A DNA stretch of 45,163 nucleotides from Anaerolinea sp. Its GTDB lineage: Bacteria; Chloroflexota; Anaerolineae; Anaerolineales; Villigracilaceae. The stretch lies in assembly GCA_020723805.1 (NCBI GenBank), contig DYID01000006.1:1-45163 (forward strand), given 5' to 3'. Under the pieces are notes generated by a model that did not search any database, was not told the DNA's origin, and was given only the letters and a program-made list of their open reading frames with translations. The stretch's first letter is position 1; each line of letters opens with the position of its first letter. A program made the translations under genes and the position numbers. Below are positions 1,288 through 42,703 of the stretch, one piece after another.

Positions 1288-2049
1288 TCACCCCAGAATC
1301 AAACTGCAACAGGTGACTGCGCCTTCTGCCTTGGCGAGTTCATCCACTTCGACGGGGAGGACTTTGTAGCCATGTTCTTCGAGTTTGGCGCGGGTTTGGG
1401 GAAAGGCGGCGGGGAAGATGACCACATCACCGACGGGCAGGCAGTTCGCCGCGTGCGGTTCAGAGGGGTCTATTTCGATCAGGCGGTAATCGGCGAAATA
1501 GGCTGTGTCCACCCAGTTTTTGTTGATGAGCAGGGTGTGATCGTCCACGCGGGTGACGGCGGATTTGAGATGCAGGCAATCGCGGAGGGGAACGCCCGTG
1601 ACGATGTAGCCGTATCCGTTCAGGAGTTGCTGTAACTGGCGGATCGCTTCGTCGTTGCTGCGGGTGGAGATGCCGACAAAGATGCGCTTGCCCACGACAA
1701 GTACATCGCCGCCGTCGAGGGTGGCGGGTTCACGGATGAACAGCAGTTTGACGAGAGGGGACAAGGCTTGGGCGATGGATTCGACTTCGGGTTTGCGCGA
1801 ATCAGCCCCAGGTCGGGTGAGAAGCGCTGCCTCAGGCAGGATGACGGCTGTGTCTTCGACAAAAACCGAGTCGGGCAGGTTTGCTTCGGCGGGAAGTTCC
1901 AGTATGTTGCATCCCAATTGTTTGAGGGCGTTCACGTAGGCACGGTGCTGAGCGCGCGCCCTGTCCACGTCAATGGGCGTGCGCTCGATGTGGGTGATTT
2001 CGCACTCGTTGAAGCGCGGGCTGATGTCTCGCGTGATGGCGAGCGGCAT
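1288..2049 (-). CDS. ddaH: Dimethylarginine dimethylaminohydrolase-like enzyme
   Basis: The 253-residue product belongs to the amidinotransferase/guanidino-modifying fold. It has VFVEDTAV (64-70), LDGGDVLVVG (111-120), CLHLKSAV (158-165) and a C-terminal TCCSLIL. D112, H160 and C247 are the likely catalytic Asp-His-Cys positions. The family hydrolyses methylated arginine to citrulline and an amine. Length matches short bacterial DDAH. Its ATG follows the ATPase gene stop with no gap, so it is the last cistron of the amino acid transporter operon. Arginine deiminase-type activity on another guanidino compound is possible; the exact substrate is inferred. Confidence 0.85.
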   Translation of the reverse strand: MPLAITRDISPRFNECEITHIERTPIDVDRARAQHRAYVNALKQLGCNILELPAEANLPDSVFVEDTAVILPEAALLTRPGADSRKPEVESIAQALSPLVKLLFIREPATLDGGDVLVVGKRIFVGISTRSNDEAIRQLQQLLNGYGYIVTGVPLRDCLHLKSAVTRVDDHTLLINKNWVDTAYFADYRLIEIDPSEPHAANCLPVGDVVIFPAAFPQTRAKLEEHGYKVLPVEVDELAKAEGAVTCCSLILG

Positions 2050-2814
2050 TTATCTTTCCCCGGAGCGGTAGCGTTCGATGAGTGCTTTGGTGCGCGGGTC
2101 CTGCGGCTGGCTGAAGAGAATTTCGGGTTTTGCCTCTTCGATAATTTGACCGTCTGCCATGACGAGGACGCGGTCTGCCACTTCGCGGGCGAAGCCCATT
2201 TCGTGCGTGACGACCAGCATGGTCATGCCGTCTTTGGCGACCTTTTGCATGACGTTGAGCACTTCGCCGATAAGTTCGGGGTCGAGTGCGGAGGTGGGTT
2301 CGTCGAAGAGCATGACCTTGGGCTGCATGGTGAGGGCGCGGGCAATGGCGACGCGCTGTTTCTGACCGCCGGAGAGGCGGTTGGGATATTCGTTCTTTTT
2401 GAAGAGCAAGCCGACGCTGTCGAGATTTTGCTCGGCAAGCTCGATGGCTTGTTTGCGATCCATGCCCTTGACGGTGACGGGTCCTTCGATGACGTTTTCC
2501 AGCACGCTCATGTGAGGGAAGAGGTTGAATTCTTGAAAGACCATGCCAGTTCGCAGGCGGATGTCGTGGATTGCCTGACGGTGTTCGCGGGTGGTGCCGT
2601 TGTGGATTTCGACGCGGATGCCGTCCACTTCGATGACCCCGCGCGACGGGTCTTCCAGAAAGTTGATGCAGCGCAGGAGCGTGCTCTTGCCGGAGCCGCT
2701 GCGTCCGATGATGCAAACCACCTCGCGCGGCTGAACTTGGAGGGAGATGTCCTTCAGGACGTGCAGCAAGCCAAAGTACTTATCGAGGTTTTCGATTTTG
2801 ACGATGGGCGCCAT
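2050..2814 (-). CDS. Polar amino acid ABC transporter, ATP-binding protein
   Basis: This 254-residue ATPase drives import through the neighbouring permease. Walker A is GRSGSGKST, the signature is LSGGQKQR and Walker B is VMLFDEPTS; the H-loop is in VVTHEMGFA. The pattern is that of GlnQ/HisP-type ATPases. The ATG at 2814 is chosen over longer upstream extensions because the N-terminus [15 protein letters not shown] matches the family and AAAGGAG lies 8-9 nt upstream, inside the end of the permease gene. The upstream extension overlaps the permease and is low complexity. It follows the permease stop by 2 nt and is itself followed directly by the dimethylargininase-like gene. Confidence 0.93.
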
Positions 2815-2816
2815 GG

Positions 2817-3656
2817 TTAGCGGTCTCCTTTGGCGAGGCGGGCTTCGATGATGCTTTGGATGTAGGTCAGGATGATGGTCATGAGCCAGTAGAAAACAGC
2901 CGCCATGATGAGCGCTTCGAGGTTGTTGAACTGGGCGCGTCCGACGCGGGTGGCGCGCCACATGATTTCATGCACGAAGCCGGTGGCAGAGACGAGCGCC
3001 GAGTCCTTGGTCATGGCGATGAAGTCGTTGCCGATGGGCGGGATGGCGAAGCGCAGCGCCTGCGGCAGGATGATGCGTTTCATCGTCTGCCAGGGAGTCA
3101 TGCCGAGCGCCATGGCAGCCTCGCGTTGACCGCGCCCGACGGAGGCAAGCCCGGCGCGGAAAATTTCGCTCATGTAGGCGCCATAGTTCAGCCCCAGCGC
3201 AATGACGCCGGCGAACAAGCCGGTCAGGACGATGCCTAACTGAGGCAGGGCGAGGAAGAAGAAGAAGATTTGCAAATAGAGCGGCGTTCCGCGGATGAGG
3301 GAAACGTAAAACGTGCTGAGCGCGTAGAAGGGCGGGAATTTGGAGAGCCGTCCCAATGCGGCGATTAGGGCGAGGACGATAGCCAGCGAAATGGAAAGAA
3401 ATGAAACCAGAAGAGTCTGCCACACCCCCCCTGCAATAAAGGTAAGGTTTTTCTGGATGAATTCCATGTTCAGGGCGATTGCCTGAAAGCCAAGAAAACT
3501 TTGACCACTGAATAGGTACACCAAAAGAAGGAACAAGACCCCCCATGTGACAGACACCCACATGTTGAACTGGCGCGATTTGCGGAGTTGCGCTTCGTAA
3601 AGCAGTTCGGCGTGTGTCTTTTGCAGGGCGGGGTCGGAATGCATGATTGCGCTCAT
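2817..3656 (-). CDS. Polar amino acid ABC transporter permease
   Basis: The 279-residue membrane protein has an N-terminal cytoplasmic stretch, a first membrane segment ([12 protein letters not shown]) and then the HisM/GlnP-type core. The ATPase-contacting EAA loop is visible as [26 protein letters not shown]. About five hydrophobic segments follow. It forms the channel for a periplasm-type binding protein; here the binding protein is a lipoprotein, which fits a monoderm or Chloroflexi-like envelope. It is preceded by the binding-protein gene and an intergenic hairpin. Confidence 0.9.
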
Positions 3657-3700
3657 AATGACGCTTGTTCCTTTCGTTGCAGAGAGCGGAATGAAAGCAC

Positions 3701-3727
3701 AGGGAGGCGGAATTCCTCCGCCTCCCT
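3701..3727. other. GC-rich hairpin between binding-protein and permease genes
   Basis: AGGGAGGCGGA (3701-3711) pairs with TCCGCCTCCCT (3717-3727), an 11-bp stem with a 5-nt loop. It sits in the message just after the binding-protein stop. There is no strong U tract after it, so it more likely protects the upstream message end or causes partial termination, which would give excess binding protein over permease. That role is inferred. Confidence 0.7.
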
Positions 3728-3744
3728 GATGGTATGTTATACCT

Positions 3745-4656
3745 TTATTTAGGCGCCTGCGTCAGGTCTTCGCCGAGCCATTTGATGGACAGTTGCGAGA
3801 GGCGACCGTCGCTGTGCATGGCGGTGAAGATCTTGTTGACTTCTTCGCGCAAGGTGTCGGTGGGCAGGCTGGAGGATTTGTCGAACGCGGCAGCCAGTTC
3901 CTCGGAGTAGACCGGCGAGCCCAGTTGAACCACCGGGAAGCCGGCGGCAATGTTGGCATTGACCACTGTCATCGAGGTGACGTAACCGACAAAGTCCTGG
4001 CGTCCGGCGGCGATTGCCTGAGCGCATTCCTGGTCGGTCGGAAGCGGGACGATTTTCACGTCTTTGGGCGGCTGGGCATAAATGGACGATTCGGGCAAGC
4101 CCAGACCCTCGAAGTCGCCGCTCAGCCATTGCTCATAGGTGGTGGCGCTGCCCACGCAGAGCGCCTGACCGTTCAGGTCTTCCAGCGAGGTGATGCCTGC
4201 ATCCGCGCGGACGGCAATGACAGCCGGAGCGTAGTAATACGGCACGCTGAAATCCAGCACTTTCTGGCGGGCGGTGGTGATGGTCATCGAGCCGATGCTG
4301 ACATCCCATTTGTCTGCCCAGTTGCCGGCGGTGATGAGGTCCCAGTCGGGGGTGGCGAAGCAGGTTTCCACACCCAAGCCCTTGCCCACTTCCACAGCGA
4401 CCTCGACATCGAAGCCCTGCATTTCCGCAGATGTCAGGGCGTCGGCCGGGCATTTGGTGTCGGCGGGGCGCTGACCGTCAGTGTTGAGGAAAGATTGGGG
4501 TTCGTAGTTCGGGTCGGTGGAGACCAGGATATAGCCGCGCTGTTTGATGGCGTCCAGTAAAGTCGCCGGCTTGGCTTCCCCGCCGCCTCCCGTACAGGCA
4601 GCGAGCACGAGAACGGCAACAATCCCCACTGCAAGAATGTTATACAGCCTTTTCAT
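3745..4656 (-). CDS. Amino acid ABC transporter substrate-binding lipoprotein
   Basis: This 303-residue family 3 solute-binding protein begins with a lipoprotein signal peptide whose lipobox is L18-A-A-C21. The mature part has the usual start LLDAIKQRGYILVSTDPNYEPQSF and domain features such as WDLITAGNWADKWDVSIGSMTIT and FSVPYYYAPAV. A Gly-rich spacer (TGGGGEAK) follows the lipid-attached Cys. It is the first gene of the operon with permease, ATPase and dimethylargininase-like enzyme, so an arginine or methylarginine-type ligand is plausible but not shown. GGAGGAG precedes the ATG. Confidence 0.92.
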   Translation of the reverse strand: MKRLYNILAVGIVAVLVLAACTGGGGEAKPATLLDAIKQRGYILVSTDPNYEPQSFLNTDGQRPADTKCPADALTSAEMQGFDVEVAVEVGKGLGVETCFATPDWDLITAGNWADKWDVSIGSMTITTARQKVLDFSVPYYYAPAVIAVRADAGITSLEDLNGQALCVGSATTYEQWLSGDFEGLGLPESSIYAQPPKDVKIVPLPTDQECAQAIAAGRQDFVGYVTSMTVVNANIAAGFPVVQLGSPVYSEELAAAFDKSSSLPTDTLREEVNKIFTAMHSDGRLSQLSIKWLGEDLTQAPK

Positions 4657-5245: not shown

Positions 5246-7069
5246 ATGCAGCCCATCCTCAAAATTGACCTCACGACAGGAAAAACCGAAGAGTATGTCA
5301 TCCCGAAAAAGTGGGAAAGGGATTTTCTGGGCGGCGCTTCTCTTGCCGCCCGCATTCTCTACGAATATCTGACCCCCGCTCTGGACCCGCTCTCGCCGGA
5401 TGCGCCGCTCCTCTTTATGACCGGTCCGCTGACCGGCACCTCCGGTCCCACCACAGGGCGCTTCGTGGTCTGCGGGAAAAGTCCCGCTACCGGGCTGTGG
5501 GCGGAATCCAACATCGGCGGCTTTTGGGGACCCGAACTGCGGAAAGCCGGCTACGACGGGTTGTGGATTGTGGGAAAGGCGTCAGCGCCGGTTTATCTCT
5601 GGTTGAGCGGGAACAGGCTCGAGGTCCGACCGGCGGCGCATTTGTGGGGCTTGGATACATACCAGACGCAGGATAAGGTCAAAGAGGAGACCGGCGTCAA
5701 GTCTGCGAGAGTCTGCGTGATTGGACCGGCGGGAGAGAAGGGAGTCCTGTTCGCGTCCATGATGTGCGATCACGGACGCATGGCGGGGCGGACGGGCTTG
5801 GGCGCGGTGATGGGAGCGAAGAATCTCAAGGCGGTGGCGGTGCATGGGGAGCGGGAAATCCCCGTGTTCGACCTGACGAAGTACAAGGCGCTGCGCTCGG
5901 AGTCGAACCGTAAACTGAAAGAGGACAACGAGGCGAAGGTACTGCGTGAACTGGGGACGGCGGGCGCGGCGAATTATGCGGAATATCTCGGCGCGATGCC
6001 GGTGAAGTATTTTTCGAGCGGGTCGTTTCCTGCCGTGGACGAGGTCTCCGGCGCGAAGATGACCGAGAGCATTCTGGTGGGGCAGAGCGCCTGCCAGGGA
6101 TGTGTGATTGCCTGCGGACGGGTGGTGAAACTGCCCGGCGACTCGGTCAAGCGCAAAGGTCCCGAACACGAGACGATGGTCGGTTTTGGCGCGAATCTGC
6201 TGAATGACAATCTGGCTTCCATCGTGGAGTTGGGGGAGTTGTGCGACCGCTATGGCATGGATACCATCAGCACAAGTAACACCATCGGCTTGGCGTTTCG
6301 TTTGTACGAGAAGGGGATCGTCACGAAAGAGGATACCGGCGGCATCGAGTTGAAGTGGGGGGATGTGGATGCCATACAGCAATTGGTGCGCCTGACCGCC
6401 TCCCGTGAGGGGCTTGGCGACCTGCTGGCGCAAGGCTCGAAGCGATTCGGCGCGTATTTCGGTGCGGAAGAGGAAGCCGTGCAGGTCAACGGACTCGAAG
6501 TGGCGTGCCATGATCCGCGCGGGGTATCGGGGATGGCGCTCTCGTATGCCACCAGTCCGCGCGGGGCGTGTCACAACCAGTCCGATTACTTCTTTGTGGA
6601 TTGGGGTCACTCGCACGAGGAGATTGGCATCGAGTTCATGGATCGTCACGCTCAGGCGGAGAAAGCCGCCAATGTGGCGCGGCATCAAAACTGGCGCTCG
6701 GTGGATAACGCCCTCGTCACCTGCATCTTCGCCAATGTGGAGGCGCAGGAAAAGGTGGACCTCATCAACGCCGCCTGCGGCTTGGACTGGTCGGTGGAGG
6801 AGATGATGAAGTTCGGCGAACGGTCATGGAATCTGAAGCGCGCCATCAATAACCGCCTCGGGCTGACCGCCCAAAACGACAAATTGCCGAAGGCTCTGCT
6901 CACGCCTCTGCCCGACGGCGGCTCGGCGGGATTTGTCCCGGACATTGCGGCGATGCTTTCTGCCTACTACGAAGCGCGCGGCTGGGATGGAACGACCGGC
7001 AAGCCGACATGGGAGAAATTGACTGACCTGGGTTTGGAGGATGTGGCGCGGGATTTGTGGGAGAAATAA
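5246..7069 (+). CDS. Aldehyde:ferredoxin oxidoreductase family protein, copy 1
   Basis: This 607-residue protein has the full AOR layout. The N-terminal domain carries GPLTGTSGPTTGRFVVCGKSP and the cofactor-binding GRTGLGAVMGAKNLKAVAV. The [4Fe-4S] ligands are C283, C286 and C290 (CQGCVIAC) and C493 (VTCIF), nearly the same positions as in Pyrococcus AOR. The enzymes use a tungsten or molybdenum bis-pterin cofactor to oxidise aldehydes or related carbonyl compounds with ferredoxin. Substrate is unknown. No Shine-Dalgarno site is visible before ATG 5246; the SCP2 gene stops 30 nt upstream and translation may be linked to it. A second AOR lies at 40.9 kb. Confidence 0.93.
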   Translation: MQPILKIDLTTGKTEEYVIPKKWERDFLGGASLAARILYEYLTPALDPLSPDAPLLFMTGPLTGTSGPTTGRFVVCGKSPATGLWAESNIGGFWGPELRKAGYDGLWIVGKASAPVYLWLSGNRLEVRPAAHLWGLDTYQTQDKVKEETGVKSARVCVIGPAGEKGVLFASMMCDHGRMAGRTGLGAVMGAKNLKAVAVHGEREIPVFDLTKYKALRSESNRKLKEDNEAKVLRELGTAGAANYAEYLGAMPVKYFSSGSFPAVDEVSGAKMTESILVGQSACQGCVIACGRVVKLPGDSVKRKGPEHETMVGFGANLLNDNLASIVELGELCDRYGMDTISTSNTIGLAFRLYEKGIVTKEDTGGIELKWGDVDAIQQLVRLTASREGLGDLLAQGSKRFGAYFGAEEEAVQVNGLEVACHDPRGVSGMALSYATSPRGACHNQSDYFFVDWGHSHEEIGIEFMDRHAQAEKAANVARHQNWRSVDNALVTCIFANVEAQEKVDLINAACGLDWSVEEMMKFGERSWNLKRAINNRLGLTAQNDKLPKALLTPLPDGGSAGFVPDIAAMLSAYYEARGWDGTTGKPTWEKLTDLGLEDVARDLWEK

Positions 7070-10868: not shown

Positions 10869-11660
10869 CTATTCCTTCATCATCTTCCCCGTCCCCCTGC
10901 CGCGCACCATCAAAATCTCCGCCATGATGCTGACGGCGATTTCCTCGGGCGTTTCGGCATTCAACTCCAACCCAATCGGCGAATGAACCTTTTCAATCAA
11001 CTCATCTGGGATGCCCTGCTCTTTCAACGCTTTGACTGTGGTCAACCAGCGGCGTTTCGAACCGATGACGCCGATGTACGCCGCCTGTGACCGGAGCAGC
11101 GCCGGCAACCCCGCCGCGTCTATGCTGGACCCGCGGCTGGTCACCACGACATAAGTCTGACGCGTCACTTTGAGTTGATTCGGCAGCTCCGCCATCGGGC
11201 AGGGATAATACGAATCCGCGCCCGGCACGGATTCGGGTGTGCAAAACTCCGCGCGGTCGTCGCTGACGGCGACGCGGAAGCCCAGCCACTTGGCGAGATG
11301 CACGACGGCTTTTCCCACGTGTCCCCCGCCGATGACGACGATCATGGGAGCGGGAAGAATCGGTTCCACGAACACCTCCACAGTCCCGCCGCATACGCCG
11401 GGGTCGCCGCGGCTGGGGTCCACCATCGAATACTTGAGCAGGCGCGGCTGACCGTCGCTGATTGCCATCCATGCCTCGTCGAGGACTCGGTGTTCCAAAT
11501 CCCCGCCGCCGACGGTACCGATGAATTTCCCATCGGGATAGACCAGCATCTTGCTGCCCACGTGCCGCGGCGTGGAGCCTTCGCTCTTCACCACCGTGCA
11601 TAGTGCGGCAGATTCGTTGTTCTTTTCGAGTTCGTAGAGAGCCTGGTAGATGGTGTCCAT
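10869..11660 (-). CDS. XdhC/CoxI family protein
   Basis: The 263-residue protein has the two-part XdhC layout. The N-terminal XdhC_CoxI part has VKSEGSTPRHVGSKMLV and GTVGGGDLEHRVL. The C-terminal Rossmann domain has VVIGGGHVGKAVVHLAKWLG and VIGSKRRWLTTVKAL. XdhC proteins bind molybdenum cofactor, promote its sulfuration and insert it into xanthine dehydrogenase-like enzymes. The likely client is the CoxS-CoxL fusion at 18.5-21.6 kb. It follows the pyrophosphatase gene by 11 nt in the same direction and has no obvious ribosome binding site. Confidence 0.92.
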   Translation of the reverse strand: MDTIYQALYELEKNNESAALCTVVKSEGSTPRHVGSKMLVYPDGKFIGTVGGGDLEHRVLDEAWMAISDGQPRLLKYSMVDPSRGDPGVCGGTVEVFVEPILPAPMIVVIGGGHVGKAVVHLAKWLGFRVAVSDDRAEFCTPESVPGADSYYPCPMAELPNQLKVTRQTYVVVTSRGSSIDAAGLPALLRSQAAYIGVIGSKRRWLTTVKALKEQGIPDELIEKVHSPIGLELNAETPEEIAVSIMAEILMVRGRGTGKMMKE

Positions 11661-18475: not shown

Positions 18476-18503
18476 ACCGATCACTAATCACTGATTACTG
18501 CTC
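18476..18503. repeat. Heptanucleotide array at the CoxL stop
   Basis: Plus-strand units GATCACT, AATCACT, GATTACT, GCTCTTC run from outside into the last codons of the CoxS-CoxL fusion gene, supplying its final residues and stop. Confidence 0.65.
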
Positions 18504-21500
18504 TTCATTGCCCTCCACACCTTCTCCGGCGTGATGGGATTCTCGTCAATGTTTACGCCCACTGCATCCAGCACAGCATTCCCCACCGCAGGCGCGACGC
18601 CGTCCATCGGAATCTCCGCCACCGCCTTGACACCGAATGGGTGACTCGGCTCGAACGTTTCCACGAAGATGGTTTCGAGTTCGGGCATTTCGTCGGCGCG
18701 GAAGATGTGGTAGCGGTCGAAGTCGCGCTGACGGATGCGCCCCTGTTCATCCCATGTCATCTCTTCGCAGACAGCGTAGCCGAGGGCTTGGGTCATGCCG
18801 CCTTCGATTTGTCCCGAAGCGGTGAGCGGGTTGACGATGACGCCCGAATCCACCGCCATCACCAGTTTGTCCACCGTGACCATGCCCGTCTCCGTGTCCA
18901 CGGTCACCTCGGCAAATTGCGCGGCAAAGGGAGGGGGAGAGGATGGCGAGACGTAGGACGCCACGCCCATAATTTGTTCCTGCTCGTTTCGATGAAGCGC
19001 ATCAAGCGCGACCTCTGCCAATGATACCGACCTGCCATCTGGCGCGATTGCCTTGCGATCAGCCAGCCGAATCTCCTCAGGCTTTACCTGTGTACTTGTG
19101 TACTTGTCTGCTTGGCTATTCAATATCTTCGCCGCCCGAATCTTAATTCTCTCAGCGCAAATCTGCGCGGCTTTGACGGTTGCCGTCCCCGAAATGTAAG
19201 TGGTGGATGAGGCATACGCGCCCTTGTCGAACGGGGTAAAGTCGGTGTCGGACGAGTAGCAGATGATGTCTTCGAGCGGCACGCCCAGCACTTCTGCCGC
19301 CATCTGCGCGAGGACCGTGTCTGAGCCTGTGCCGAGGTCAGTTGCGCCAACGAGGAGATTGAATGAGCCGTCGTCGTTCATTTTGATGGATGCCCCGCCC
19401 ATGTCGAGGTAGGGAATGGCGGTGCCTTGCATGACCAAAGCGACGCCGATACCTTTTCGGGTCGAAAGTCGAAGGTCAGAGGTCGTGCTTGACTTTCGAC
19501 CTGCGACTTTCGACTGTTTCCGCCATTCCTCATTCCCAAACTTCTCATCCCAGCCAATCGCCGCCTTGCCCTGACGGACGCACTCCTCCAGCCCGACGGT
19601 ATGGATGATTTCCGGGCGCGGCTCGCGTCCTTCGTTCCATGCCGTGCTGAAGGGATGATATTCGCCCGGGCGGATGGCGTTCTTCAGGCGGAACTCCAGC
19701 GGGTCGAAGCCCATGGCGCGGGCGATTTTCTCCATGTGACGTTCGAGGGGCCAGTATCCCTGCGGCACGCCGTAACCGCGATACGCGCCTGCGGGCGGCG
19801 TGTTGGTGTACACCACGTCTGCGTAGAAGCGGATGTTGGGACTCTTCCGATACTCCCCGTCGCCGACGTAGAGCGCCATTGCCTTGTGTCCCGTGTTGCC
19901 GGTCACGGTCAGCGCGTGACAGCCATACGCGCCCGTGTCCGAGAGCGCGTACATCGCGTTGGCGGTGATCGTCCCGTCGCGTTTGACGCCCGTCTTCAGT
20001 TTGATGCGCATGGGATGACGCGAACGCGCCGCCGTGAACTCCTCTTCGCGCGTGTACTCGTACATCACGGGGCGGCCAGTGGCAATCGTCAGATGCGCCG
20101 CCACGTCCTCCATCAGCACTTCCTGTTTGCCGCCGAAGCCTCCGCCAATGCGCGGCTTGATGACGCGGATGCGCTTGATGGGCAGTCCCAGCACCGGGGC
20201 GAGTTGACGCCTCACATGAAACGGGACCTGAGTCGAGGTCCGAATGACGAGGCGGTCATCCTCATCCCAATACGTCACGCAGACGTGCGGTTCGATGTGC
20301 GCCTGCTGAACCTTCGGCACTTCGTATTCGGCTTCGAAGATTTCATCGGCTTCGGCAAAGCCCTTTTCCACGTCGCCGATGTCAATGCGGATGTGCGCGG
20401 CAAGATTTCGGTCGGGGTTCGATTCGGCGAAATTGACGTATTCGGGCTCGTCGTGAATCTTCACGGGATTGTCGAGCGCCTCGCGCGAATCGAGAATCGC
20501 AGGCAGGACTTCGTATTCGACTTCGATCAGCGAAAGGGCTTTCTCTGCAATCTCCGGCGTCTCCGCCGCGACGAACGCCACGCGGTCGCCCACGAAGCGG
20601 ACTTTGTTGTCGAGCGAGAACGTATCGAGCGGACCCGGGATCGGGTCAGACTGACCGGCGGTGGAGTAGACGACGCGCGGGATGTCCTGCCACGTCAGCA
20701 CCGCGGCGACTCCTTCGAGGGCGCGTGCTTTGCTGGCGTCAATGCGTTTGATACGGGCGTGTGCGTATGGCGAATGCAGAACTTTGGCGTGGAGCAGTCC
20801 GCGCTTTTCAAAATCGGCGGCGAAGGCGGGCTTGCCCTGCACGAGTTTGACCGCGTCCACTTTGACCTCGGGCTTGCCCACCGTTTGCCATTGTTTGGTT
20901 TGAGGGGCGAGAATCACTTTGGGGGCAATCTTGGTAGTGATCAGTGACCAGTCATCAGTAATCAGTTTCTCGCCTGGCGGCGTGTCGGTTTCAGCAGGTA
21001 ACTGCCCACTGCTCACTGATAACTGATCACTGCTCACTGATAACTGATCACTGCTCACTGGTGACTGATCACTGATCACTGGTGACTGATCACTGATCAC
21101 TTCTCCGCGAAGTTCCGCCGCCGCTTTCATCACTGCCTGCACCGGTTTGAGATAGCCCGTACAGCGGCACAAGACGCCCGCAATCGCCTCGCGGACTTCG
21201 GCTTCGGTCGGGTTGGGGTTTTTATCGAGCAACGCCTTCGCGGCGAGAATCTGCGCGGGCGTGCAGTAGCCGCACTGGATCGCGCCCGATTCGACGAAGG
21301 CGCGTTGGAGCGGATGCAGCCCGTCTGTTTTTTTCCACCCCTGTTCGGGATGTTCGCCGAGCGCTTCGATGGTGGCAATCTTGTGACCTTCTGCCTGCGC
21401 CGCGAGCAGCGAACCCGCGTTGACGGGTTTGCCGTCCAGCAGGACAGTGTCCGCGCCGCTTAGTCCGTGCTCGTCGCCGAATTTGACGCCGTGGTAGCCC

Positions 21501-21586
21501 AGTCCGCGCAGCGCCGCCAGCAGGGTGGTGTGCGCGGGGGCTTCGAGTTCGTGGTCAATGCCGTTGATGTGGAGGGTGATGTTCAT
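18488..21586 (-). CDS. Fused CoxS-CoxL molybdenum hydroxylase (xanthine dehydrogenase family)
   Basis: The 1032-residue protein joins a small iron-sulfur subunit (1-160) to a molybdopterin-binding large subunit (about 230-1032). The ferredoxin-like domain has lost its ligands: D38, S43, D46 and G58 stand where C-x4-C-x2-C-x11-C is expected. The second [2Fe-2S] domain is intact with C105, C108, C140 and C142. The large part has RIGGGFGGKQEVLMED and ends with VKAVAEIPMDGVAPAVGNAV, keeping the catalytic Glu. The linker (162-217) is encoded by heptamer arrays, and two more arrays lie within the large part. AGGAG precedes the ATG. Substrate unknown; an aldehyde or N-heterocycle is likely. Confidence 0.88.
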   Translation of the reverse strand: MNITLHINGIDHELEAPAHTTLLAALRGLGYHGVKFGDEHGLSGADTVLLDGKPVNAGSLLAAQAEGHKIATIEALGEHPEQGWKKTDGLHPLQRAFVESGAIQCGYCTPAQILAAKALLDKNPNPTEAEVREAIAGVLCRCTGYLKPVQAVMKAAAELRGEVISDQSPVISDQSPVSSDQLSVSSDQLSVSSGQLPAETDTPPGEKLITDDWSLITTKIAPKVILAPQTKQWQTVGKPEVKVDAVKLVQGKPAFAADFEKRGLLHAKVLHSPYAHARIKRIDASKARALEGVAAVLTWQDIPRVVYSTAGQSDPIPGPLDTFSLDNKVRFVGDRVAFVAAETPEIAEKALSLIEVEYEVLPAILDSREALDNPVKIHDEPEYVNFAESNPDRNLAAHIRIDIGDVEKGFAEADEIFEAEYEVPKVQQAHIEPHVCVTYWDEDDRLVIRTSTQVPFHVRRQLAPVLGLPIKRIRVIKPRIGGGFGGKQEVLMEDVAAHLTIATGRPVMYEYTREEEFTAARSRHPMRIKLKTGVKRDGTITANAMYALSDTGAYGCHALTVTGNTGHKAMALYVGDGEYRKSPNIRFYADVVYTNTPPAGAYRGYGVPQGYWPLERHMEKIARAMGFDPLEFRLKNAIRPGEYHPFSTAWNEGREPRPEIIHTVGLEECVRQGKAAIGWDEKFGNEEWRKQSKVAGRKSSTTSDLRLSTRKGIGVALVMQGTAIPYLDMGGASIKMNDDGSFNLLVGATDLGTGSDTVLAQMAAEVLGVPLEDIICYSSDTDFTPFDKGAYASSTTYISGTATVKAAQICAERIKIRAAKILNSQADKYTSTQVKPEEIRLADRKAIAPDGRSVSLAEVALDALHRNEQEQIMGVASYVSPSSPPPFAAQFAEVTVDTETGMVTVDKLVMAVDSGVIVNPLTASGQIEGGMTQALGYAVCEEMTWDEQGRIRQRDFDRYHIFRADEMPELETIFVETFEPSHPFGVKAVAEIPMDGVAPAVGNAVLDAVGVNIDENPITPEKVWRAMKSSNQ
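19086..19118. repeat. Octanucleotide array inside the CoxL part
   Basis: On the coding strand the units AAGCAGAC, AAGTACAC, AAGTACAC, AGGTAAAG encode SQADKYTSTQVKP. The 8-bp unit is the same family as the array at 22460-22536. The frame is kept. Confidence 0.7.
19458..19515. repeat. Inverted pair of heptanucleotide arrays inside the CoxL part
   Basis: On the coding strand, GTCGAAA, GTCGCAG, GTCGAAA units are followed by their reverse complements ACCTCTG, ACCTTCG, ACTTTCG. The pair could fold as a long hairpin. It encodes SKVAGRKSSTTSDLRLST, an unconserved-looking insertion before the RKGIGVALVMQG strand. Confidence 0.78.
20935..21103. repeat. Heptanucleotide arrays forming the CoxS-CoxL linker
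   Basis: On the coding strand 15 units of the form GTNANCA (21103 down to about 20997) encode the repeats VISDQSP x2, VSSDQLS x2, VSSGQLP. After about 30 bases of other sequence come four inverted units (TGATTAC, TGATGAC, TGGTCAC, TGATCAC; about 20966-20936). Three heptamers make 21 bases, so each repeat adds exactly seven residues and the frame is kept. Confidence 0.92.
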
Positions 21587-31622: not shown

Positions 31623-31712
31623 TGTTGTTGTCGTTGCGAGCGAGTGTACTTCGAGCGAAGCAATCTCCTTGCGACAGGCGACTGCTTCGCCGCAGGCTTG
31701 CGGTGACGTTAT
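31623..31712. repeat. Dispersed GCGAAGCAATCTCC-type repeat
   Basis: The sequence around GCGAGCGAG and GCGAAGCAATCTCC, followed by GACTGCTTCGCCGCAGG, matches by eye a palindromic repeat seen between genes in many bacterial genomes (cores TTGCGAG and GAAGCAATCTCC). It lies between the Mod start and the CoxM-like stop. Confidence 0.55.
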
Positions 31713-32467
31713 GAAATATCTTCCAAACATCTCTTTGCCAGCGTCGCGGCGGCATCCATGCGGTATTCGGCGGATGCCATGTCGTCCGCGGCTTCGTGAC
31801 AGGCGTTGCGCGCCGCGGTTTCGAGACCTTCGGCTTCGGTCCCATCCATCGCCAGCGAGGGGGACTTGCCCCAGCCGCCGAGCGCCAGCCGCGTGCGCCC
31901 CGAATTCCACTGCGTGAGCGCCGCGCAGACGATGGGCTTGTCGGAGGGAGTGCGCGCGACGTATTCGAAGGCGAATTTGACGTTGAGGGGGATGACGATT
32001 TGCGTAATCAATCCGCGCGGGCGCAGGGGAAGAAAGTCTCCAGCATTGAGTGTGGATGGTTGGTAATTGGTAATTGGTAATTGAAGACTGAACACTGATA
32101 ACTTCGCATCGAGGGCGAGCAAAGATGTTGCAAACGTGGAACGCCCATCGCACGTGACCAGCGTCCCTGCCACGGTGGCGGAATTGCGCAGGTTGAGCGG
32201 CGCTTCGAGTTTGATAGCGGTCTTCAACGCGGGCGGACAGTGTTCCGATTCGAGCAGCTGCTGGAGCGTGACGGTCGCGCCGATTTCGATGGTATTTCCT
32301 TTGGGGCGGATGTAGTTCAAGCCGAGGCGTTGGAGGTCCACAACGGAAACGGGATCAGGCGTCGGCTTGGAAAGATGCGTCCCGCCGCCGAGGGGGACGG
32401 TGTTCGGTTGAGAGAGAAGCGTGAGGGCTTCGTCGAGAGTTTGCGGGCGGTGATAAGTCGTAATCAT
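31709..32467 (-). CDS. CoxM-like FAD-binding subunit of molybdenum hydroxylase
   Basis: The 252-residue protein matches the FAD-binding domain of molybdopterin dehydrogenases: VPLGGGTHLSKPTPDPVSVVDL near residue 25 and LNLRNSATVAGTLVTCDGRS near residue 90, with a C-terminal CO-dehydrogenase-flavoprotein-like part. It would pass electrons from the iron-sulfur domain to NAD or another acceptor. A heptamer array encodes SVFSLQLPITNYQPSTLN within it. The ATG at 32467 has GAGGAAGGAG upstream and matches the family start MITTYHRPQTLDEAL. It is 10 kb away from the CoxS-CoxL fusion, an unusual split. Confidence 0.85.
   Translation of the reverse strand: MITTYHRPQTLDEALTLLSQPNTVPLGGGTHLSKPTPDPVSVVDLQRLGLNYIRPKGNTIEIGATVTLQQLLESEHCPPALKTAIKLEAPLNLRNSATVAGTLVTCDGRSTFATSLLALDAKLSVFSLQLPITNYQPSTLNAGDFLPLRPRGLITQIVIPLNVKFAFEYVARTPSDKPIVCAALTQWNSGRTRLALGGWGKSPSLAMDGTEAEGLETAARNACHEAADDMASAEYRMDAAATLAKRCLEDIS
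32051..32103. repeat. Heptanucleotide array inside the CoxM-like gene
   Basis: Coding-strand units GTTATCA, GTGTTCA, GTCTTCA, ATTACCA x3, ACCATCC. They encode a stretch containing LPITNYQP, like repeat-derived peptides seen in cyanobacterial proteins. The array begins with one unit family and shifts to another without losing the 7-bp phase. Confidence 0.85.
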
Positions 32468-32486
32468 GAAAACTCCTTCCTCTCGA

Positions 32487-32492
32487 ATTATA
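32487..32492 (-). promoter_or_regulatory. -10 box TATAAT of the CoxM-like gene
   Basis: Minus-strand TATAAT 19 nt before the ATG at 32467; the short leader holds a GAGGAAGGAG ribosome binding site. Confidence 0.65.
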
Positions 32493-32496
32493 CAAT

Positions 32497-32530
32497 CAAA
32501 ACATGCCGCCACCTTTCGATGACGGCATGT
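32497..32530 (-). terminator. Terminator after the LysM/anti-sigma gene
   Basis: On the minus strand ACATGCCG pairs with CGGCATGT around a 14-nt loop, followed by TTTGATT. It ends the sigma/LysM transcript just before the CoxM promoter. Confidence 0.7.
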
Positions 32531-40870: not shown

Positions 40871-42703
40871 ATGTACGGCTGGCACCTCAAAATTTTGCGC
40901 GTGAACCTCACCACCCGAAAAGTCACCACCGAAGACGTTGACCCGAAAATTGCCCGCGATTATCTCGGTGGGCGCGGCTGGGCGATCCATTACATGTACA
41001 AAGAGATGGACCCCGCTGTGGACCCGCTTTCGCCGCAGAACATGCTCATCTTTGCCACAGGTCCACTCACGGCTACGCCCGCGCCGACCGGCAACCGCTA
41101 CATGGTCGTCACCAAGTCGCCGTTGACGGGAGCGCTGGCGCATTCCAACTCCGGCGGCGACTTTCCCACCTGGCTGAAGCGCACCGGCTTCGACATGTTC
41201 ATCTTCGAGGGGAGGGCGTCAGAGCCGGTTTATGTTTGGGTCAACGAGGACCGGGTCGAGGTCCGCTCTGCCGCGCATGTGTGGGGCAAAGATACGCATG
41301 AGACGACGGACATCCTGCTCGCGGAGACGCATTCCGATGCGCGCGTCGCCTGCATCGGACCGGCGGGCGAGAATCTCGCGCTCATGGCGGCAATCATGAA
41401 CGACAAGCACCGCGCGGCGGCGCGTTCGGGCGTTGGCGCGGTGATGGGAAGTAAAAATCTCAAGGCGGTGGTGGCGATGGGGAACAAGAATCCGCCGCTG
41501 CACAACCCCGAAGGAATGCGCGAAATCAGCGTGAACACCTCCAAGAACGTGGGTGCCGATGTCAAGAAGGGCTCGAACATGCGCATTTACGGCACGTCGT
41601 ATGTTCCGCAGGTGACGAACACGCTCGGCATTCTGCCCACGAGGAATTTTTTGCAAGGCACGTTCGAACACGTCCACAACATTGACGGCGATGCGCTCAA
41701 GGACAACTACCTCATCCGCCACACGCCTTGTTACCGCTGTCCGCTTTCGTGCGGACGCCTCACTGAAGTGCCGGATGGACCCTACAAAGGCAAGGGCGAA
41801 GGTCCCGAGTATGAGACGATTTCCTCTCTTGGCACGGGATGCGGCGTGAGCAACCTCGCCGCGCTCGTCAAGGCAAATTACCTGTGCAATGAATACGGCT
41901 TGGATACCATCTCGACCGGCATGACGATAGCCGCCGCGATGGAGATGTATGAAAAGGGATATATCTCCGACGAGGTGACCGGCATCCCGCTGCGCTTCGG
42001 CGACCACGACGCCATGATTGCCATGATCAAAAAGATGGCATACGGCGAAGGCTTCGGCAAAGACCTGGCGATGGGCAGTTACCGCTTGTGTGAAAAATAC
42101 GGTCACCCTGAACTTGCCGTGACCACGCGCAAGCAGGAGTTCCCCGGCTACGACCCGCGCGGGTCGCAGGGGATGGGTTTGCTGTATGCCACCTCCAACA
42201 AGGGCGCCTCGCACATGGAAGGCGATGTTGCCTACGAGGAGGTCTTCGGCGTGCCGGTGAAGGAAAACCCGCTTACCACCGAAGGCAAGGCGGAACTCGT
42301 CAAGCACTTTCAGGATTCGTTTGCGTTGATTGATTCTTCGGGGTTGTGTGTGTTCGTTGCCATCCGCTACGTCTTCGACAAGAACCGCATCATCTGGCCC
42401 CAAACGCTTGCCGCCATGATGAACCTTTCCACCGGCGCGGGCTACACTCCCGAAGAGGTGCTGAAAGCCGCCGACCGCGTCTATACCCTCGAGCGCATGT
42501 TCCTCATCAAAGCGGGTTCGGGTCCCGAGTGGGATACGCTCCCGCCGCGCATGTTGCACGAGCCTTTGCCGGATGGTCCCGCCAAGGGCAGGGTGGTGGA
42601 ACTCGACAAGATGCTCCCGGAGTTTTACCAGCGGCGCGGCTGGGATGAAAGAGGCTATCCCACCAAAGAAAAGTTGCTGGAACTGGGACTGCCGTTGAAT
42701 TAA
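40871..42703 (+). CDS. Aldehyde:ferredoxin oxidoreductase family protein, copy 2
   Basis: The 610-residue protein has GPLTATPAPTGNRYMVVTKSP, RSGVGAVMGSKNLKAVVAMG, the cluster ligands C287, C290 and C294 (CYRCPLSC) and C493 in SSGLCVF. All four positions closely match the classic AOR. It uses a tungsten (or molybdenum) bis-pterin and ferredoxin. It differs clearly from copy 1 (for instance an SSGLC motif instead of NALVTC), so substrates may differ. AAGGAG lies at good spacing before the ATG. The MoaD-like gene upstream and a strong terminator downstream frame it. Confidence 0.94.
   Translation: MYGWHLKILRVNLTTRKVTTEDVDPKIARDYLGGRGWAIHYMYKEMDPAVDPLSPQNMLIFATGPLTATPAPTGNRYMVVTKSPLTGALAHSNSGGDFPTWLKRTGFDMFIFEGRASEPVYVWVNEDRVEVRSAAHVWGKDTHETTDILLAETHSDARVACIGPAGENLALMAAIMNDKHRAAARSGVGAVMGSKNLKAVVAMGNKNPPLHNPEGMREISVNTSKNVGADVKKGSNMRIYGTSYVPQVTNTLGILPTRNFLQGTFEHVHNIDGDALKDNYLIRHTPCYRCPLSCGRLTEVPDGPYKGKGEGPEYETISSLGTGCGVSNLAALVKANYLCNEYGLDTISTGMTIAAAMEMYEKGYISDEVTGIPLRFGDHDAMIAMIKKMAYGEGFGKDLAMGSYRLCEKYGHPELAVTTRKQEFPGYDPRGSQGMGLLYATSNKGASHMEGDVAYEEVFGVPVKENPLTTEGKAELVKHFQDSFALIDSSGLCVFVAIRYVFDKNRIIWPQTLAAMMNLSTGAGYTPEEVLKAADRVYTLERMFLIKAGSGPEWDTLPPRMLHEPLPDGPAKGRVVELDKMLPEFYQRRGWDERGYPTKEKLLELGLPLN

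Follow-up and report, generated by a model that had tools for sequence, protein, structure and literature searches.

Conserved loss of the plant-type [2Fe-2S] cluster ligands in an XdhD-like molybdenum protein of Chloroflexota

In textbook accounts, the enzymes of this family have their cofactors in a linear chain (Mo, Fe-S, Fe-S, FAD). How could electrons travel between FAD and molybdenum if one of the two clusters could no longer be held by its protein? This question is raised by a 1032-residue protein encoded in a 45,163-nt stretch of DNA from Anaerolinea sp. (contig DYID01000006.1; hereafter, the window), which shares the four helical-domain cysteines with the canonical two-cluster relay of the xanthine oxidase family but not the four plant-type ones. 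The preliminary description of this locus held that the plant-type ligands had been cleanly replaced and took this, together with a CoxM gene 10 kb away, to suggest another electron exit or a changed reaction. The features of the gene are as follows.

18488 to 21586, minus strand: fused FeS-Mo oxidoreductase, XdhD-like, 1032 aa (open reading frame, Pfam domains, XdhD alignment and NCBIfam scores)
21413 to 21475, minus strand: codons 38 to 58, with D38, S43, D46 and G58 at the plant-type [2Fe-2S] ligand positions
21161 to 21274, minus strand: codons 105 to 142, with C105, C108, C140 and C142 of the second (proximal, helical-domain) cluster, intact (alignment and Fer2_2)
20999 to 21101, minus strand: tandem repeat within the linker that joins the FeS and Mo domains (Tandem Repeats Finder, period 21 with 4.9 copies, or period 7)
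18503 to 20887, minus strand: Mo-pterin part, residues about 234 to 1028 (Pfam Ald_Xan_dh_C, MoCoBD_1 and MoCoBD_2)
19631 to 19633, minus strand: codon 652, Glu, aligned with XdhD Glu606

Cluster ligands in the window protein and its relatives

The protein begins with a CoxS-like FeS domain (residues 1 to 160), followed by the repeat-bearing linker and the Mo-pterin part, and Pfam recognized Fer2_2, Ald_Xan_dh_C and both MoCoBD domains. No match to PF00111, which we take to be the plant-type Fer2 domain, was returned up to an E value of 0.1. Codons 38 to 58 of the minus-strand frame coincide exactly with 21413 to 21475, and the alignment bore out both the replacement of the four ligands by D38, S43, D46 and G58, with the x4-x2-x11 spacing kept, and the integrity of the four second-cluster cysteines. 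The surroundings of the lost site are preserved, as had been described: the fold signature is retained, as a CoxMS fusion encoded by the same genome (contig C27) has a Cys-bearing domain with 47% identity to the FeS region of the window protein. The linker repeat encodes an ISDQSPV-like sequence with a period of 7/21.

Alignment with homologues showed a clean loss that is characteristic of a lineage: a D-(S/T)-D pattern is carried by 78 of the 80 nearest relatives. These relatives were the best 80 of 548 from a scan of genome contigs (best-segment identity, 73 to 92%), nearly all in records titled Chloroflexi or Anaerolineae; residues were counted from a MAFFT alignment that demanded no motif, and the two relatives set aside, L078 and L083, keep all eight cysteines. 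Asp38 and Asp46 are each present in 78/78, while position 43 is Ser in 55 and Thr in 23. The fourth ligand position is Gly in 71, Ala in 3, Ser in 2, Val in 1 and Arg in 1, the Arg belonging to the frame-broken L061. Cluster II reads CCCC in 75 of the 78. Two of the exceptions, L061 and L065, come from genes split by a frame break, in which the scored fragment stops short of cluster II and the second fragment reads CCCC; the third, L081, reads S-C-D-E. One relative (L043) is filed under Blastopirellula marina; its contig holds an 82% near copy of the Chloroflexi gene and is probably a binning error.

Takeover of the vacated positions by other cysteines was also looked for and is ruled out, the window protein having no Cys ahead of C105; among 83 proteins with the D-(S/T)-D pattern, 64 have none before that position and 19 have one. 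The 83 genes were picked by a motif that demands the Asp residues, and only codon counts were used from this set: Asp38 is GAC in 42 and GAT in 41, and Asp46 is GAT in 43 and GAC in 40. Both Asp codons are thus about equally used, which argues that the residue, not the DNA, is held. By the genetic code, going from Cys (TGY) to Asp (GAY) takes two changes and would not be a one-step slip. Decay, a pseudogene or a sequencing error is barely credible: L061 and L065 do carry frame breaks, but the window gene is an open frame of 1032 codons, and we reject gene decay or assembly error on the residues common to 78/78 near relatives and on the freely varying synonymous codons at the Asp positions.

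We also examined a wider set of proteins. In a TIGR03313 search of 400 Chloroflexota genomes, 79 matched strongly (E up to 1e-100), and none of the 400 reached the curated cutoff. Thirty of these loci were combined with haloarchaeal, Sinorhizobium, Cetobacterium, Shinella and Streptomyces proteins and with E. coli XdhD. Three patterns were seen: both clusters are present in many proteins, only cluster I is missing in the window's lineage, and both are missing in some, namely, E. coli XdhD and five Chloroflexota proteins (L122, L123, L128, L138 and L139), of which L123 retains one cluster II Cys. The Cetobacterium protein, XdhD's sister in the tree described below, has both sites, the first with one extra residue, and L144 (haloarchaeal, Haloterrigena) has three of the four ligands. 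At the lost sites of other clades the residues are S-T-A-D in most and D-A-D-S in E. coli. Seven alignment rows reading GCCC reflect a one-residue shift, and those proteins retain C-x4-C-x2-C; L142 and L164 were treated as ligand keeping in the tree. The clean loss does mark a lineage, but it is not unique, as E. coli XdhD and another Chloroflexota clade are without both clusters.

The tree comprised 63 Mo domains, a subset made up of 20 loci chosen from L005 to L084 (two of which keep Cys), the window protein and, for the rest, proteins from other searches. The sets overlap: L041/L134 and L079/L127 share identical FeS domains, while L117/L163 and L118/L157 are the same genes, each pair being reduced to one. 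The minimum number of changes on this tree is at least three for cluster I and at least three for cluster II. On this quick tree with long branches, and with groups set by ligand state, AU tests rejected a single clade of all cluster-I-lost rows (P = 6.6e-7), a union of the window's own clade with the both-lost clade (P = 3.1e-7) and a union of the both-lost clade with E. coli (P = 2.8e-51). One common loss for all lineages is rejected by these three groupings, and the relatives seem to have lost clusters separately at least twice more. Within the window's lineage, a single loss would need the fewest changes, an argument short of proof; the branch uniting that lineage is weak, with a support of 36.

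Inside the same lineage, L081 (positions 1289 to 4258) is also without three of the four cluster II ligands, reading LDRETGY in place of the usual LCRCTGY. These letters recur in all but one of the five both-lost Chloroflexota proteins, and QSGYS is likewise shared by three of those four.

Likeness to XdhD and the probable FAD partner

E. coli XdhD is the closest named protein, with 35% identity over the full length. The best NCBIfam scores were those of XdhA_XDHase (681.3 bits; cutoff, 780) and TIGR03313 (678.9 bits; cutoff, 1101.9), and the selenium-dependent xanthine dehydrogenase TIGR03311 gave 438.2 bits against a curated cutoff of 830.45. Since the curated score of every family tested was missed, we describe the protein as one that works like XdhD rather than as a filed member. 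Compared from sequence, the window protein and the E. coli XdhD-YgfM pair (uric acid reductase; TIGR03313/TIGR03312) have in common a fused FeS-Mo chain, an FAD subunit of the YgfM kind and a Glu at position 606, and both chains lack the cluster I ligands and have Asp in the first and third of these positions. However, all four cluster II ligands are gone as well from the E. coli protein, whereas the window protein retains its four. Chloroflexota also have XdhD-like proteins with all eight ligands present (L078, L083, L120, L121, L124, L126 and others); these show the same fusion and neighbors, with identity rising to 75% in the copy from the L154 operon. The best PDB sequence and fold matches, 4-hydroxybenzoyl-CoA reductase (1rm6) and glyceraldehyde oxidoreductase (4zoh), are of the CoxS/CoxM/CoxL type and share domain order and fold family. 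Enzymes of that type have both [2Fe-2S] clusters and other substrates.

XdhD was reported to convert uric acid to 2,8-dioxopurine with NADH when purified together with a protein of roughly 30 kDa, presumed to be YgfM, and Glu606 was proposed as a residue that may orient urate (Li et al. 2025, PMC12507026). A Glu stands at this position in 110 of 120 Mo-domain proteins and is absent from the genome's own paralogues on contigs C27 and C11; the equivalent of Glu652 is also present in Cys-keeping relatives, and it therefore does not track the loss. In the Cetobacterium locus, the FAD subunit and XdhD lie within a full uricolytic cluster. Of the suggested change of reaction, what stands is that a reductive reaction is plausible, the closest characterized relative being reported to reduce uric acid (PMC12507026). 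By this likeness, a reductive activity on urate is likely, and the downstream route may differ.

Two further genes in the window bear on the electron path and the cofactor.

31709 to 32512, minus strand: YgfM/CoxM-type FAD subunit, likely partner (Pfam FAD_binding_5; best NCBIfam match TIGR03312)
10869 to 11660, minus strand: XdhC-family cofactor insertion/maturation protein (NCBIfam XdhC_rel_AOR, 232.9 bits, and xanthine_xdhC, 125.8 bits, both under the cutoff)

The CoxM gene is indeed present on the same strand, some 10.1 kb upstream, and its best match, the YgfM family, scored 70.7 bits against a cutoff of 241.5. Among the 51 cluster-I-lost loci showing at least 7.7 kb upstream, 35 have a YgfM/CoxM-type gene upstream on the same strand, and in 16 no FAD subunit was seen. 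The gap to the XdhD-like gene runs from an overlap to 7.8 kb and is within 300 nt in 5/51. Because the partner lies upstream in 35/51 loci, the distant CoxM is best read, from these gene arrangements, as the usual YgfM-like partner displaced and not as a sign that FAD has been dropped. Downstream, XdhC- or YqeB-like genes (YqeB-like best matches counted) are found on the same strand in 39 of the 49 relatives with enough flank. A same-strand FAD subunit was present in 11 of 16 wider loci; a separate one was not found in the other five (L149, L153, L158, L160 and L161), L160 having a CoxMS fusion instead. An FAD subunit is also near four of the five both-lost Chloroflexota genes. The GGGT and RN-x-x-T motifs, which we take to mark the FAD site, appear to be retained in the clades with lost clusters. 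With FAD subunits the usual upstream partners and both motifs apparently kept, the proposal of another electron exit finds no support.

A compact arrangement is seen in two loci of the same order with cysteines intact, L154 and L155, whose XdhD proteins are 75% and 70% identical to the window protein. Their cluster holds SsnA, NpdG, an F420-type LLM oxidoreductase, a YgfM-like protein, XdhC, CoxMS, CoxL, YqeB and YqeC, with the YgfM-like gene, XdhD and XdhC consecutive. The same kinds of genes are scattered in the window genome: XdhD, CoxM and XdhC are in the window; SsnA, NpdG and LLM are on C48; CoxMS, CoxL and YqeB are on C27; YqeC is on C6; and selD is on C26. SsnA is over its cutoff in this genome with NpdG beside it, and the LLM gene is 80% identical to that of L154. 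By reference search, neither an SsnA nor an LLM gene was found within the window itself, and no diaminopropionate lyase (DpaL) over the cutoff was found in the window genome.

Possible routes for electrons to molybdenum

In a related structure the cofactors stand in line at distances of 13.5, 13.8 and 10.8 Å (PMC8305194), and the plant-type cluster, FeSII, is the one nearest the FAD (PMC3864932). Without the distal cluster, the jump from FAD to the proximal cluster would be up to about 24 Å if this geometry were unchanged. Rates were computed from the general tunneling rule for electron transfer with three parameter choices and came to roughly 0.3 to 18 per second at 20 Å, 0.02 to 1.2 at 22 Å, 0.0004 to 0.03 at 24.6 Å and under 0.00002 at 30 Å. 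The 20-Å rate could suffice for a slow catabolic enzyme. Proteins that lack both clusters would need closer docking of the subunits, another carrier or a redox-neutral reaction. A hand tally over six lost sites found Asp or Glu at 10 of 23 vacated ligand positions, against a background of 11 to 14% (binomial P of 7e-5 to 5e-4, post hoc), an excess that would fit carboxylates standing in for an anionic cluster.

The AlphaFold model of the full chain had a pLDDT of 60.5, and that of the FeS domain had one of 77.7, with loop 37 to 45 under 50. Foldseek and VIA-align recovered CoxS-type chains from it, but with an rmsd of 11 to 12 Å across the whole domain; thus, the two halves of the FeS domain would be wrongly placed relative to each other in the model. 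Predicted structures of this quality, too poor at the loop, say nothing on the empty site.

Our best reading, held with about even confidence, is that this is a Chloroflexota urate-reductase-type enzyme of the XdhD kind in which the distal cluster was lost, the domain was kept and electrons probably still come from FAD. Its grounds are the ligand loss, the conservation of that loss, the independent losses in relatives and the gene neighborhoods. The protein would be a molybdenum (possibly selenium-dependent) purine oxidoreductase with fused FeS and Mo parts, probably serving reductive uric acid degradation, and a separate YgfM-like subunit would supply the FAD. The distal plant-type [2Fe-2S] cluster would have been lost in the window's lineage with its domain kept, and the empty loop would be held by the conserved Asp38, Ser/Thr43 and Asp46, which probably replace the cluster's negative charge and hydrogen bonds. 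Electrons would probably flow in the reductive direction, from NAD(P)H to FAD, the proximal cluster, Mo and the purine, the missing relay being replaced perhaps by a slow long jump or by closer docking of the FAD subunit.

It is conceivable, albeit unlikely, that the proximal cluster takes electrons directly from a different docked donor (for example, ferredoxin, or a reductase dependent on F420 or flavin), bypassing the FAD subunit. NpdG and F420-type LLM genes belong to the relatives' operon and are present in the window genome, and Chloroflexota clusters are reported to have an F420-type enzyme in place of YgfK, while C. difficile XdhD is described without YgfM, perhaps using ferredoxin (PMC12507026). 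L149, in which both clusters are lost, has no YgfM-like match but a weak 25% match to the Cetobacterium 4Fe-4S protein adjoining XdhD. Against a direct donor stand the FAD subunit seen upstream in 35/51 cluster-I-lost loci and near four of the five both-lost Chloroflexota genes, and its kept motifs.

Less probable still is that Asp38, Ser/Thr43 and Asp46 let the empty loop bind a different redox group or a metal, be it mononuclear Fe or some other cofactor. The invariance of the D, S/T, D residues in 78/78 near relatives and the post hoc carboxylate excess from the hand tally are both consistent with such a site, but the residues differ in other lost clades, which fits a structural stand-in better than a single metal site. 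We regard a redox-neutral transhydroxylation, a putative activity that would move an oxygen group from one purine to another without outside electrons, as very unlikely. Clades without any Fe-S ligand do retain the Mo part, and by the tunneling rule electrons would cross a gap of about 30 Å or more too slowly; against this, the FAD subunit is retained in 35/51 loci and near four of five both-lost genes, and E. coli XdhD is reported to have been assayed with NADH, in an account that singles out no control without NADH (PMC12507026).

XdhD and its reaction are already known. In the literature searched, which covered few subscription papers, no mention of missing Fe-S ligands in XdhD was found, and the term "2Fe-2S" is absent from the main text of PMC12507026; a repeated, graded loss with the domain and the FAD subunit kept is not described within that literature. 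Somewhat below even confidence, we propose that the XdhD branch has repeatedly dismantled its Fe-S relay (the distal cluster only, or both) and has retained the empty domain along with the FAD subunit, which would imply an undescribed electron route to Mo. This enzyme group thus seems able to do without parts of its electron wire. A lineage lacking the distal cluster only, with Cys-intact sister genes in an operon, makes the need for the relay directly testable, the more so as E. coli XdhD is reported active (PMC12507026) with a sequence devoid of any Fe-S ligand. The answer also matters for the newly found reductive pathway: which bacteria use it to reduce uric acid, and which electron donor they rely on.

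Selenium markers and other metal-enzyme genes

The markers of selenium-dependent molybdenum hydroxylases, SelD, YqeB and YqeC, are all encoded in the window genome, each over its cutoff. This is the likeness to those enzymes; on the other hand, YqeB adjoins another Mo hydroxylase on C27 and may serve that one instead; selenium in the window protein would be a possibility suggested by gene content. The selD gene (G000:C26:48744-49676, minus strand; 359 bits, over the cutoff) lies about 3.6 kb past the window end, and its frame holds one TGA, probably marking a selenocysteine-containing SelD. A haloarchaeal locus (L143, Haloarcula marismortui pNG700) has two tandem FeS-Mo gene pairs with D-aminoacylase, a Zn-dependent hydrolase, YqeB, SelD and YqeC, a gene set that looks like an archaeal selenium-linked purine cluster. 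The window also contains two aldehyde ferredoxin oxidoreductase-like (tungsten-type) genes, at 5246 to 7069 and 40871 to 42703, both on the plus strand and under the curated cutoff.
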